Shown here in pieces: positions 27,155-47,536 of a stretch of DNA of 64,000 nucleotides (position 1 is the first letter of the stretch; every line of letters starts with the position of its first letter). The stretch is from Shinella fusca (GTDB taxonomy: Bacteria > Pseudomonadota > Alphaproteobacteria > Rhizobiales > Rhizobiaceae). Below the pieces are notes generated by a model. That model searched no databases. It was given only the letters and a program-made list of their open reading frames with translations, and was not told the DNA's origin. The stretch spans positions 310,001-374,000 of the forward strand of contig NZ_JACHIK010000001.1 in assembly GCF_014203155.1 (NCBI RefSeq). The letters run 5' to 3'. The position numbers and the translations under genes are program-made.

Positions 27155-28903
27155 TCAATAAGACACAAGCAAGGCAGAGCCGTCGTCACCGAATTTCGGC
27201 TTTACACCGAGAAGCGCGGCGGAACGGCGGATGATCTCGCCCACCATCGGGGCGGCGTTGCTGCCGGCGGTGCGCCCGCCGCCCTTGCCCGTCTGCGGGG
27301 CGTCGATGAAGGTCAGGACCACGTAATCGGGGTTGTCGATGGGGAAGCCCGAGACGAAGGCGTTGAAGTTGAGCGTGTTGGAATAACGCCCGTTCACCAC
27401 CTTGTTGGCCGTGCCCGTCTTGCCGCCGACATTGAAGCCGGGAACGAGCGCGTTGCGGCCGGAGCCGTCGTTGCCGTTCAGCTTGTAGAGGTAGCGCATC
27501 GCGTCCACCGTCGACGGCTTGACGACCATCTTGGCGATCTCGTCGGCCTCCTCGCGGCTGCGCGGCAGGAAGGTCGGGTTGATGAGCTTGCCGCCGTTGA
27601 GGAGCGCGGCGGCGGCGACGGCCGTCTGCAGCGGCGTCGTCGAGACGCCGTGGCCGTAGGAGATGGTGATCGAGTTGATCTTCTTCCAGACGGCCGGCTG
27701 GCTCGGCGTCTTGACCTCGGGAAGCTCGGTTTCGAGCCGCGTCAGCAGGCCCATGCGGGTGAGGAATTCCTTGTGCCCCTCGATGCCGATGACGTCGGCC
27801 ATCTTGGCCGTGCCGATATTGGAGGAATACTGGAAGATTTCCGGCACCGTCAGGACGCGGTGCTTGCCGTGGAAGTCGTGGATGGTGAAGCCGCCGATGC
27901 GGATGGGCTTGCTGGCGTCGAAGCTGTCGGTGAGCTTCACCTTGCCCGAATCGAGCGCCATGGCGAGCGTGAAGCTCTTGAAGGTCGAGCCCATCTCGAA
28001 CGTACCGTTCGACATGCGGTTCAGCCAGCCCTCCTCGGCGCCTTCGGCCGGGTTGTTCGGGTCGAAGTCAGGGTAGGAGGCCATGCCGAGGACTTCGCCG
28101 GTATGCACGTTCAGCACCACGGCGCCGGCCGAGATGGCCTTGTACTTCTCCATGCCGTCCTTGACGACGTCGCGCACGATCGCCTGCACGCGAAGGTCGA
28201 TGGAAAGGCGCACCGGCTCCAGCTTGGCGTCGCTCGTCATGCCGATGGCGGCAAGGTCGGCAAGGCCCTGGTTGTCGATGTAGCGCTCCATGCCGGAGAT
28301 GCCGCGGTTGTCGATATTGACGTAGCCGACGATGTGCGAGGCGGTGGGGCCGCCCGGATAGAAGCGGCGCTTTTCCGGCCGGAAGCCGACGCCGGGAATG
28401 CCGAGCGCCAGGATGCGGCTCTGCTGCTTGGGCGTCAACTGGCGCTTCAGCCACTGGAAGCGGCTCTTGGAGGTGAGCTTGCGGTAGATGTCGCGCCGGT
28501 CGAGGTCCGGCAGCACGGTGGCGAGCATCTCGACGGCCTCGTCCGCGTCGACGATCCTGTTCGGCTCGGCATAGAGCGAGACGGTGCGGATGTCGGTGGC
28601 GAGGATCTCGCCGTTGCGGTCGACGATGTCCGGGCGCGAGGCCATCAGGCGGTCGGCCGGGCTGATCGAGGAAACGGTCTCGGGCGAGGCCATGCCGTAC
28701 TGCACGAGGCGGCCGCCGATGACGGCATAGGCGACGCCGAAGCAGCAGATCATGACGGCGACGCGGCTGCGGGCCTGCGAGCCGGAGCGCTTGCGCGTGC
28801 CTTCGAAGGACTGGCCGCCGGCGCCGGCCGAACGGTTGTTGTTGCCGCCGGCGTTGAAGTGCGCCTTGCTCTTGACGACCATGATACGGGAAAGGAAGGA
28901 CAT
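27155..28903 (-). CDS. ftsI: Septal transpeptidase FtsI (PBP3)
   Basis: Class B penicillin-binding protein that cross-links septal peptidoglycan together with FtsW. The 582-residue protein has a Ser/Arg/Asn-rich cytoplasmic N-terminus, one membrane segment at about 48-66, the dimerisation domain, and the transpeptidase motifs STFK (nucleophile Ser), SSN (QYSSNIGTA) and KTG (VGGKTGTANK). Its ATG shares one base with the ftsL stop (TGATG), indicating coupled translation. Confidence 0.97.
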   Translation of the reverse strand: MSFLSRIMVVKSKAHFNAGGNNNRSAGAGGQSFEGTRKRSGSQARSRVAVMICCFGVAYAVIGGRLVQYGMASPETVSSISPADRLMASRPDIVDRNGEILATDIRTVSLYAEPNRIVDADEAVEMLATVLPDLDRRDIYRKLTSKSRFQWLKRQLTPKQQSRILALGIPGVGFRPEKRRFYPGGPTASHIVGYVNIDNRGISGMERYIDNQGLADLAAIGMTSDAKLEPVRLSIDLRVQAIVRDVVKDGMEKYKAISAGAVVLNVHTGEVLGMASYPDFDPNNPAEGAEEGWLNRMSNGTFEMGSTFKSFTLAMALDSGKVKLTDSFDASKPIRIGGFTIHDFHGKHRVLTVPEIFQYSSNIGTAKMADVIGIEGHKEFLTRMGLLTRLETELPEVKTPSQPAVWKKINSITISYGHGVSTTPLQTAVAAAALLNGGKLINPTFLPRSREEADEIAKMVVKPSTVDAMRYLYKLNGNDGSGRNALVPGFNVGGKTGTANKVVNGRYSNTLNFNAFVSGFPIDNPDYVVLTFIDAPQTGKGGGRTAGSNAAPMVGEIIRRSAALLGVKPKFGDDGSALLVSY

Positions 28904-29292
28904 CAGCGCGCCACCGATCCGGTCTGGATTGCATCCGTGCCCGAGGCGGGCGTCTTGGCCCTGGCGACCTTGTCGTCCTTCTCCGCGGGAAGCGCGGGCA
29001 GTTCGGCGACGGGCATCGGCAGCTCGTTCGGCTGGGCGAGCTGGGTCGATTCGGTCGGAACGAGCTTCAGGTCGCCCTCGAATATCTGCACGAGGCGCTC
29101 GAGCCGGTTCGGCTGGGTCGCCAGCGCCCAGTCGGCCTTCAGGAGGTCGATCGTGTCCTCCTCCAGCTTGATCTCGGCATCGAGCTTGCGCACCTCTTCG
29201 AGCTTGTTGTCGGCCTGGTGCTTGATCGAATAGGTGACGGTTGCTGCTGCGGTCATGACGGCGATCATCACGACATCAAGGGTACGGAACAT
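28903..29292 (-). CDS. ftsL: Cell division protein FtsL
   Basis: Small bitopic divisome protein that activates FtsWI. The 129 residues comprise one N-terminal membrane segment (about 3-22), a coiled coil of about 35 residues (HQADNKLEEVRKLDAEIKLE), the LERL motif typical of FtsL, and a Pro/Ala-rich tail. Identity rests on this layout plus the invariant position between rsmH and ftsI. A GTG directly before the ATG (29295) abuts the rsmH stop and could be used instead. Confidence 0.88.
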   Translation of the reverse strand: MFRTLDVVMIAVMTAAATVTYSIKHQADNKLEEVRKLDAEIKLEEDTIDLLKADWALATQPNRLERLVQIFEGDLKLVPTESTQLAQPNELPMPVAELPALPAEKDDKVARAKTPASGTDAIQTGSVAR

Positions 29293-29295
29293 CAC

Positions 29296-30321
29296 TCAGC
29301 TTCCCATCTTCTCGAGGCCGGCAAGGTTGGGCAGGTTGAAAATGGACAGATCATCCGTCCCGGCGGGGGCGCTGGTGCGCTCGCCTGCTCTCAGCTTCGC
29401 GGATCGTGCGCGCGGGTTGACCGCGCTCTCCTCGTCGCCGGCGGCCACCATAGGGCGCCCGACTGGTGCGAAGGTTGCGGCGCGGTCGTGAACCTCCGGC
29501 AGGTGCCGGGAGCCCGCAGCCTTGCCGGAGCGATCCTGGAAGAATTTCTTGACGATGCGGTCCTCCAGCGAATGGAAGGAAACGACGACGAGCCGCCCGC
29601 CGGGCTTCAGCGCGCGCTCGGCGGCGATCAGCGCGCGGGCGAGCTCGCCGAGCTCGTCGTTGACGAAGACGCGCAGCGCCTGGAAGACGCGCGTTGCCGG
29701 ATGGATCTTGTCCTTGGCCTTGCGCGGGGTCGTGAGCTCGATGAGGTTGGCGAGCTGCCGCGTCGTGGTGAAGGGCTCCTTCTCGCGCGCCTTCTCGATG
29801 GCCCGGGCGATGCGGCCGGCCTGCTTCTCCTCGCCGAGGAAGCCGAAGATGCGGGCAAGGTCGGAGACCTTCGCGCGGTTCACCACGTCGGCGGCCGAGA
29901 CGCCGGAGGCGGACATGCGCATGTCGAGCGGGCCGTTCTTCTGGAAGGAGAAGCCGCGTTCCGCCTCGTCGATCTGCATGGAGGAGACGCCGATATCGAG
30001 CACGACGCCGTCGAGCCCGCCTGCGGGCGCGTGGTCGGCAAGATCGGAAAAGCGCGAATGGATGAGCGAAAGCCGGCCGCCGGAGGCCTTTACCAGCCCC
30101 TGCCCGCCTTCGATGGCCGTCGGGTCGCGGTCGAGCGCGATGACGTTGGCGCCGGCAGCCAGGATCGCCGACGTGTAGCCGCCGGCTCCGAACGTGCCGT
30201 CGAGGATGACGGCGCCGGGCCTCGGCGCGAGCGCCTCGATGACCTCGGAGAGAAGAACCGGAATGTGACGGACCGGTCCGCCATCGGCATCAGTAGAACC
30301 TCCGCCAAGATCCGCCGCCAT
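29296..30321 (-). CDS. rsmH: 16S rRNA (cytosine-1402-N4)-methyltransferase RsmH
   Basis: Methylates C1402 of 16S rRNA with SAM. The 341 residues begin at the ATG at 30321, the first start before the conserved HIPVLLSEV; the frame upstream is only mraZ read in another phase. The SAM motif is [15 protein letters not shown] (about 40-54), and [11 protein letters not shown] marks the C-terminal part. The ribosome binding site CGGAGAA lies in the 14-base gap after mraZ. Also known as MraW. Confidence 0.96.
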
Positions 30322-30335
30322 TCCGATTCTCCGTC

Positions 30336-30776
30336 TTACTCCGAGCCCAGACCTCGCGTCCTGAACTCTTCCCGGGCAGCCGCCTGCGTGGCTAGGAATG
30401 TCTGCGGTGCCCAGAGCTGAAAATGATCCGCCCGACCGACAAAGGTCACGTCCGTCGTAATGCCCGTATAGTCCCGGATGAAATCCGTGACCGGCAGGCG
30501 TCCCTCCGAATCGAGCTTCATGAAGACGCCGCCCCCGTGAATGAGGAGCGACATCCGGTTGGCCTTCGGCGCAAAAGCGTCCTCGCTGGCGATCTGGCGC
30601 TCGAGACGATCGAGCAGATCCGGGCCGCCGACGCTGATGGCCGGAAACATGAAATCCTGGAAGCAATAAAGTTCCCGGATGTCCCGTTGCGACAGGACGG
30701 AACGGAATGCCGAGGGAACGGAAACCCTCCCCTTGGCATCTATCCTGTTCGTCGCATTGGACAGGAACCGGGTCAT
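30336..30776 (-). CDS. mraZ: Transcriptional regulator MraZ
   Basis: DNA-binding AbrB-like protein, first gene of the dcw row and in E. coli a repressor of it. The 146-residue protein has the two tandem MraZ repeats; each holds the conserved [13 protein letters not shown] / [13 protein letters not shown] signature. The ATG at 30776 precedes [16 protein letters not shown], as in other rhizobia; upstream codons add a Cys/Arg-rich shadow. Four TGGGN repeats 180-215 bases upstream are its probable operator. Confidence 0.95.
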
Positions 30777-31198
30777 GACGCGATACAGCCGCTTCCCCCG
30801 CCGGGACGCTGTGCATCCGCCCCGACATAACCGACACAACACTGCGCCCGCAATCCAGCCTCGGCGCGGCGCAAAAGCGCCTCACCGTCCCCAGCCGGTC
30901 GACCTCAAAGGTTTGCGATGATCGGACGCTCATGCGTCCTCGTGCAGTGCGATTTTGGGATACCATGGGACCATATGGGCGTCAATGGGAAGAGACCTCG
31001 TCTCCCGTCTTCGGACCTCCAATCGTTTATAAGCCGTTAAGTTTAACAAAAGGTTAGGAAACGTCGTTCAACGCCTTGGATTTGCACGAGGCGGGACAGC
31101 GCCCGCGCGCAATTCGCCGTACTGCAAGGCGCGCGCGAACCCCAAGGAATTCAGCACCTTGGCGTGCCGCGAAAAAACTTCGCAAGGGAAGGAGATTT
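30777..31198 (-). promoter_or_regulatory. mraZ upstream region
   Basis: About 420 bases without a gene between rnpB and mraZ. It holds the MraZ-type repeats (30956-30990), a CtrA-like TTAA-N7-TTAG at 31043-31057, and the palindrome GTTAAGTTTAAC at 31036-31047. A short inverted repeat CCAAGG/CCTTGG lies near 31141-31162 beside the rnpB 3' end. The dcw promoter must lie here, but no single -35/-10 pair stands out. Confidence 0.6.
30956..30990 (+). promoter_or_regulatory. Four TGGGN repeats, probable MraZ operator
   Basis: TGGGA at 30956-30960, TGGGA at 30966-30970, TGGGC at 30976-30980 and TGGGA at 30986-30990, each separated by exactly five bases. MraZ of E. coli binds direct TGGGN repeats with five-base spacers. 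Here the words read on the strand opposite to mraZ. Binding is inferred from the match. Confidence 0.8.
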
Positions 31199-31598
31199 TT
31201 GCCAGTTGGCCTGTAAGCCGGGTTCTGTATGGCTCTGGCTTTCGCCGGAACGTGGCAGCCATTCATCTGGGACCGGACTTGCGCCCGGCCTCTTGCAACC
31301 CACCCGGATGACCGGCCCGGAAACAGGCTGGACCGCTTGCGCGGCCCGCGTCATCCCTATTCGGTTTTGCTCCCGGTGGGGTTTACCGTGCCGGCCCTGT
31401 CGCCAGGACCGCGGTGGGCTCTTACCCCACCCTTTCACCCTTACCTTCCAAGGAAGGCGGTTTGCTTTCTGTGGCACTTTCCCTGGGGTCACCCCCGCCG
31501 GACGTTATCCGGCACCGTGTTTCCGTGGAGCCCGGACTTTCCTCACCCTGCGGCCTTTCGACCCTTGCAAGGCGCGGCTGCCCGGCCAACTGGCAGGC
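31199..31598 (-). ncRNA. rnpB: RNase P RNA (bacterial class A)
   Basis: Catalytic RNA that matures tRNA 5' ends. On the minus strand the 5' half has GAGGAAAGTCCGGGCTCC (31544-31527) and the 3' end has AGAACCCGGCTTA (31226-31214), the two universally conserved RNase P signatures. The terminal P1 helix pairs GCCAGTTGGCC with GGCCAACTGGC at the two ends. Ends are accurate to about ten bases. Open frames inside it are coincidental. It lies 37 bases downstream of a protein gene on the same strand, so its promoter must overlap the end of that gene. Confidence 0.95.
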
Positions 31599-47114: not shown

Positions 47115-47360
47115 TCATGGCAATGCCTCGGATTGCGAGGTCGCCTTCGAGCAGCATGGTAAATGAACAATGTCTGCACTCGTCATCCGTTAGGGATTGT
47201 GAATTTTTTGTGGCGCGCAAAATAAAGGAGGAAATTCAGCAGGTTAACATTGTGAATAACCGTCCGGCCGCGGCCGGATGTTGCAACGCAGCAACAAAAC
47301 GCCTTTCCAACACGCTTTTTTCGGTCGTAATATCGGATCGTAAACGCAAGGAGGTAAGCC

Positions 47361-47438
47361 ATGGGACTCACACATTCCTTGAATGTTCTGATGATCAGTG
47401 CAGCGTTCCTCTTCATCGCAACGATGATCTTCATCTGA
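47361..47438 (+). CDS. 25-residue hydrophobic membrane peptide
   Basis: A small gene with an excellent AAGGAGGTAA site eight bases before its ATG. The product starts MGLTHSLNVLMISAAF and continues with LFIATMIFI: a short polar N-terminus and one membrane helix. A hairpin terminator follows at 47499. The strong ribosome site, single helix and terminator support a real gene; function unknown. It may be driven by the EcfG promoter at 47090. The antisense frame over it has no such support. Confidence 0.7.
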   Translation: MGLTHSLNVLMISAAFLFIATMIFI

Positions 47439-47498
47439 GGCGATCAAGCGAAAAGAAAGGTCAGGGAGAAGCACAAACCCTGCCGAAACCCATTCAGG

Positions 47499-47536
47499 AA
47501 TGCATGGCCCCGGAAACGGCGCCATGCATTTTCATT
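47499..47536. terminator. Terminator between the small gene and metF
   Basis: AATGCATGGC (47499-47508) pairs with GCCATGCATT (47521-47530); the loop can add two more G-C pairs. TTTCATTTC follows on the + strand. It lies between convergent genes and may serve both, but the tail is best on the + strand. Confidence 0.65.

Follow-up and report, generated by a model that had tools for sequence, protein, structure and literature searches.

The mraZ locus and its upstream repeats

The window, which is the whole 64,000-nt stretch of Shinella fusca DNA analyzed here, carries on its reverse strand the genes mraZ, rsmH, ftsL, and an ftsI-like gene, with the RNase P RNA gene rnpB upstream of mraZ (Table 1). 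At the head of the dcw (division and cell wall) cluster stands mraZ; in many bacteria the cluster encodes division and wall machinery. Elsewhere in the window, Rfam identifies a match to Atu_C9, a Rhizobiales sRNA (RF02503, 103.9 bits), at 47339–47532 on the forward strand.

Upstream of mraZ, four TGGG words start at 30956, 30966, 30976, and 30986 of the forward strand, an exact 10-bp period, and the array spans −213 to −180 relative to the mraZ ATG. Number, period, and placement on the strand opposite to mraZ are all as the original prediction of a reversed MraZ-type operator had stated. The features that mark an MraZ operator, at least three copies of a TGG/GTG-type word in direct repeat with a period of about 10 bp, a position in cis upstream of mraZ, and co-occurrence with an mraZ gene, are found together at this site.

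Table 1. Features of the mraZ locus in window coordinates
Feature	Position	Strand	Remarks
ftsI-like penicillin-binding protein	27155..28903	-	PF00905, PF03717
ftsL	28903..29295	-	NF049847
rsmH (mraW), 16S rRNA m4C1402 methyltransferase	29296..30339	-	approximate start
mraZ	30336..30776	-	ATG at 30776; 146 aa; NF001477 equivalog
mraZ 5′ leader (predicted)	30777..30949	-	about 173 nt; stop-free in the frame that begins 1 nt ahead of the mraZ ATG
Hairpin GGACGC-ATGA-GCGTCC	30924..30939	-	near predicted 5′ end of leader
Transcription start (predicted)	30948..30950	-	7-nt gap gives 30949, ±1; by analogy with the S. meliloti 170-nt 5′ UTR
MraZ box 4 (predicted)	30956..30959	+	shares bases with 3′ half of −10
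Extended −10, TGG TATCCC (predicted)	30957..30965	-	hexamer 30962–30957
MraZ box 3 (predicted)	30966..30969	+	within spacer; immediately precedes extended −10
MraZ box 2 (predicted)	30976..30979	+	within −35/−10 spacer
−35 element TTGACG (predicted)	30980..30985	-	
MraZ box 1 (predicted)	30986..30989	+	CCCA on mraZ strand; immediately precedes −35
CtrA-like site TAA-N7-TTAA	31042..31056	-	upstream of promoter; read by eye
rnpB, RNase P class A RNA	31198..31593	-	upstream of mraZ, same strand

With a three-word pattern allowing at most one mismatch, the array is the sole match in the window (two overlapping matches); shuffled windows gave a mean of 0.25 matches over 100 shuffles, and at least two matches in 3 of the 100. 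The exact three-word pattern likewise matches only the array in the whole 4.85-Mb genome (again two overlapping matches), and a control pattern matches nowhere. A four-word pattern with up to three mismatches yields 8 + 10 matches genome-wide versus 7 + 9 for a control pattern, and at two mismatches or fewer matches only the array itself and its own overlapping shift, so that this whole-genome scan reveals no further MraZ target above the control level, although weaker sites are possible. Together with dinucleotide shuffles of the same-family upstream regions described below, which reach a score of at least 14 in 0 of 350 cases and of at least 13 in 2 of 350, the window shuffles and controlled genome scans rule out a chance origin of the repeats.

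The window protein as MraZ

The product of the window mraZ scores 223.6 bits against the NCBIfam equivalog model NF001477 (cut-off 162) and lies below the cut-off in five other MraZ models, including TIGR00242 (52.6 of 98.35), a model that is too strict for alphaproteobacterial MraZ (0 of 210 genomes of the class above cut-off). Its AlphaFold model (mean pLDDT 89) has the MraZ fold, aligning with M. pneumoniae MraZ (PDB 1n0e) with a Z score of 17.0 and an rmsd of 2.7 over 139 aligned positions, with the cryo-EM structure of the M. genitalium MraZ–promoter complex 9r4j at Z 16.7, and with the 4-box complex 9sz7 at Z 16.1. By sequence and predicted fold, the window protein is thus MraZ. The title of PDB entry 9sz7 describes MraZ with a 4-box promoter, and four boxes therefore fit a known binding mode.

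Conservation and orientation of the array

The original prediction had named absence of the repeats from close relatives as evidence against it; the array is present there. A same-family set of 81 genomes, including the window's own, has an mraZ match in 71, and all of the 70 upstream regions used (G053 was left out) carry an antisense array, none a sense one. Within the genus, each of 21 genomes contains exactly one exact four-box site (position relative to mraZ was checked in G000 and G075 only), which suggests one strong MraZ target in the genus. The best 80 named loci, mostly from Rhizobiaceae and partly overlapping the same-family set, are also antisense throughout (80/80).

From 210 genomes drawn across the class, 176 of which match TIGR00242, 70 further regions were examined (the 30 best-scoring and 40 picked for family spread and completeness), of which 58 have an antisense array, 12 fall below the cut-off, and none is sense. 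Several of the 12 (e.g. L078, L109, and L127) retain weaker NCCA words at array spacing; L085 and L087 have no NCCA words at that spacing. Twelve extra alphaproteobacterial regions comprise nine antisense arrays, two without an array, and one nominally sense, and six regions belonging to a divergent MraZ comprise two antisense, one sense, and three without an array. Over all distinct alphaproteobacterial upstream regions, as judged on the last 200 nt and with Rhizobiaceae in the majority, 213 of 232 are antisense, 17 are below the cut-off, and 2 are sense. One of the two sense regions, L205, looks genuine, and the other, L329, is doubtful. L205 (genome G092) has its sense TGGG array about 204 bases upstream of the match to a divergent MraZ and possibly represents a reversal of the antisense rule.

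Outside the class, a draw of 160 genomes from the phylum gave 109 matches, from which 50 gamma- and betaproteobacterial regions were examined (30 best-scoring and 20 picked). Here 45 of 50 arrays are sense at a score of at least 12 (32 of 50 at 13) and none is antisense, whereas shuffles reach a sense score of at least 12 in 4 of 250 cases. With 213 of 232 alphaproteobacterial regions antisense and 45 of 50 gamma- and betaproteobacterial regions sense, array orientation among the regions examined is thus nearly a character of the class. Most of the examined Alphaproteobacteria have the words on the reversed strand, and the window site is no oddity in this respect.

Neighboring exact words in the alphaproteobacterial arrays are 10 bp apart in 524 of 588 cases, the next most frequent spacing being 20 bp (21 cases). 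Alpha- and gammaproteobacterial units have TGG(G) in common; the base before TGGG, however, is A in 80% of the alpha units and G in 85% of the gamma units, and the recognized word is therefore not identical.

The boxes coincide with a predicted promoter

The designation of the array as a predicted MraZ-type operator is strengthened by these comparisons across relatives; what the original prediction had not noticed is that the boxes overlap a −35 element, a spacer, and a −10 element. The typical family sequence on the mraZ strand reads CCC(A/G)TTGACG CCCANNNNNN CCCATGNTAT CCCA, with TTGACG as the −35 element, 17 bp of spacer, and an extended −10 of the form TGnTATCCC. A spacer of 17 bp fits best in 70/70 same-family regions and in the best 80 named loci, and TGnTAT is complete in 61 of the 70 and 74 of the 80. 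The promoter is less uniform outside the family: among the 58 class-wide arrays, the spacer is 17 bp in 36, 18 bp in 16, and of another length in 6, and the −35 element matches at five or six of six positions in 42 and at four or fewer in 16. In many other alphaproteobacterial families, the words fill slots displaced downstream by one unit, past the −10, in an unchanged 10-bp register to the −10.

A strict σ70 consensus scan reports no promoter at the array, TATCCC being a poor σ70 −10 match, and the promoter assignment therefore rests on conservation and on a published 5′ UTR length. Transcription starts are usually purines; the S. meliloti locus (L281) has a T at −170 and a purine 1 nt to either side. 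A 7-nt gap places the predicted start of S. meliloti 4H41 at about −170, in agreement with the 170-nt mraZ 5′ UTR obtained by RNA-seq reanalysis in S. meliloti, possibly of a different strain (PMC5089854); varying the gap from 5 to 9 nt shifts the predicted length from 172 to 168 nt. For R. sphaeroides the same article gives a 5′ UTR of 268 nt, with which a weaker array of family f24 (L118), located approximately from −305 to −266, is roughly consistent; our guess that f24 is Rhodobacteraceae comes from the shared long leader with a hairpin. A secondary start for mraZ has been reported in at least one of three agrobacteria (PMC10469942).

Comparison with known MraZ operators

The MraZ operator of E. 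coli is said to have been described by Eraso in 2014. In E. coli K-12 (NC_000913), three TGGG words at a 10-bp period lie on the same strand as mraZ, which bears out the predicted reversal at the window site. The two sites are alike in their TGGG words, their exact 10-bp period, and their position upstream of mraZ. They differ in that E. coli has three sense words, located downstream of the −10 (PMC7761207), whereas the window has four antisense words over −35 to −10.

Four units are no departure from other MraZ sites, although the count of four, as predicted against the three of E. coli, is correct. The B. cenocepacia site consists of four repeats of 7 nt separated by 3-nt spacers, hence the same number and the same 10-bp period as the window, and a fragment with the site was bound by purified MraZ in EMSA (PMC7761207). 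Its repeats lie downstream of the −10, over the transcription start, whereas the window array lies over −35/−10, so that the layout of the E. coli and Burkholderia sites, with words on the mraZ strand and downstream of the −10, is not the one found here; we regard that layout as a trait of the proteobacterial sites studied so far and not as a defining mark of MraZ operators. The M. genitalium complexes 9r4j and 9sz7, compared by title, share with the window the MraZ fold and a 4-box promoter but involve a different word, the Mollicutes repeats being AAAGTG[T/G] (PMC8475190). The B. cenocepacia site and the 9sz7 promoter together rule out four boxes as a novelty.

Among Alphaproteobacteria, the R. 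sphaeroides dcw leader UpsM (PMC5089854) resembles the window in that mraZ has a long 5′ UTR; in the main text of that article, "repeat" and "TGGG" occur 0 times and MraZ boxes are not described. We found in the open-access literature neither a description of an alphaproteobacterial MraZ operator nor MraZ-binding or mraZ-deletion data for any alphaproteobacterium; an earlier account elsewhere is possible.

Array presence follows mraZ presence

Absence of mraZ was checked in 31 genomes with A1, a sensitive profile of alphaproteobacterial MraZ, which gives no hit at E ≤ 1 in 24, weak hits only in G016 (0.0075 and 0.63), and a divergent MraZ in the other six. A convincing MraZ is missing from 25 genomes; 24 of them have rsmH, giving 25 loci as the gene in G150 is split in two pieces (one locus, L236, starts inside rsmH). 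Within 1500 nt upstream of each of the 25 rsmH matches, no array reaches the cut-off of 13, and the scores in 23 of 25 do not exceed the best of 20 mononucleotide shuffles, L220 and L228 exceeding it by one. Some mraZ-less loci (L231 and L233) nonetheless contain promoter relics, TTGACG with CCCATGGTACCC. Absence of the arrays, with promoter relics kept at some loci, is what is expected if MraZ holds the boxes in place and RNA polymerase only the promoter words. Elsewhere, 8 of the 25 mraZ-less genomes contain exact three-word arrays, the control pattern being present in 2 of 25, and none of these arrays adjoins rsmH.

In family f14, inspection by eye reveals CCCN words in place of CCCA in three of five genomes (G394, G397, and G408, not G092 or G225), accompanied by a divergent MraZ. 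A separate observation concerns G355, a 1.5-Mb same-family genome in which mraZ was not found: positions 196032–196085 of its contig C1 (L243) contain six tandem TGGG units at a 10-bp period (TGGGATATAA repeated).

Proposed mechanism and alternatives

We regard it as very probable that the dcw cluster has its MraZ operator in these four TGGG words, at which a ring of MraZ on the four boxes would exclude RNA polymerase and repress mraZ and the genes behind it. Since the boxes are spaced by 10 bp, they face the same side of the helix, and we infer that MraZ binds them with a single ring engaging all four. With its boxes overlapping the −35, the spacer, and the extended −10, MraZ bound as a ring would cover these elements and be a direct competitor of RNA polymerase; by blocking the polymerase, it would repress its own gene and those downstream. 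To judge from the sequence, repression most likely occurs by excluding RNA polymerase from the promoter, unlike at the E. coli site downstream of the −10. The logic of autorepression is probably common to the window, E. coli, and B. cenocepacia, with direction and position of the boxes differing.

A reading in which no MraZ is needed is that initiation is controlled by a G-quadruplex that the four GGG tracts would form on the template strand. In S. aureus, a G-quadruplex downstream of the mraZ promoter has been proposed to affect expression, and conserved G-quadruplex motifs are reported for other mraZ promoters (PMC11796246). The window array, as GGG-N7-GGG-N7-GGG-N7-GGG, conforms to the G3N1-7 ×4 sequence rule, as do 62 of 70 same-family arrays, 78 of the best 80 named loci, 34 of 58 class-wide arrays, and 4 of 9 extra alphaproteobacterial arrays. 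Of the 45 gammaproteobacterial arrays, however, only one fits (array segment only), and a G-quadruplex is therefore not what proteobacterial mraZ arrays share. Nor would a G-quadruplex alone predict the T before GGG, kept in 93% of 812 alphaproteobacterial units, the fixed 10-bp spacing, or the missing array upstream of rsmH where mraZ is gone, and we give this account little credence.

The overlap in bases between boxes and promoter, and the promoter relics at the mraZ-less loci L231 and L233, would also be compatible with the words being mere promoter sequence, CCCA being carried along by TTGACG and TGnTAT with no protein reading it. Yet the words within the spacer are conserved too, many alphaproteobacterial families occupy slots past the −10 in the same 10-bp register, and the regular array is missing from genomes without mraZ, which makes this explanation very unlikely. 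That another regulator of the mraZ promoter, be it CtrA, NtrX, or CenR, reads the repeats is extremely unlikely. NtrX and CenR are bound upstream of mraZ in Rhodobacter (PMC7240162, PMC9275681), and a CtrA motif upstream of S. meliloti mraZ is in print (PMC3616915, PMC4414408), but the motifs as published for NtrX (GCA-N9-TGC) and CtrA (TAA-N7-TTAAC; PMC3616915) are unlike 10-bp TGGG repeats, the CenR article of the two on Rhodobacter states that the mraZ site lacks the CenR motif, and array presence tracks mraZ presence.

Taking MraZ as the reader of the boxes, we lean toward a broader view in which the operator of the alphaproteobacterial class was inverted and merged into the core promoter, the shared bases evolving as one; the ring would load in the opposite direction and occlude the polymerase, the number and position of boxes would tune its effect, and L205 would be an apparent return to sense. 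If true, a highly conserved division operon would have changed its geometry of repression throughout the class. Box orientation becomes a testable evolutionary switch, and the composite of operator and promoter is a concrete site to mutate that also predicts a transcription start.

The mraZ leader

As a stable structured RNA, the leader was rejected: the fold of the whole leader has a z score of −1.04, and 31 of 200 shuffles fold equally well. Only in the short hairpin near its predicted 5′ end have pairs changed on both sides, three of five among 17 sequences. Among 131 distinct Rhizobiaceae leaders with an array score of at least 15, the frame beginning 1 nt upstream of the mraZ ATG is stop-free in 122, compared with 10% and 27% for the other two frames; in 68 non-redundant leaders, the counts are 59 versus 6 and 23, and the distance from array to ATG is a multiple of 3 in 50. 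The stop-free frame continues into mraZ and ends at +1481 in 58 of the 131 loci, a position that is the rsmH stop in the window.

An ordinary protein gene in the leader was also rejected, as GC at third positions is not raised and a common start codon is absent. Changes at third positions are mildly in excess (411 versus 326 and 325 over 46 pairs), and codon positions show no clear signature. The likeliest reading is that the leader is translated, perhaps in a frame overlapping the mraZ start. In R. sphaeroides, a leader ORF showed low but significant lacZ activity (PMC5089854).
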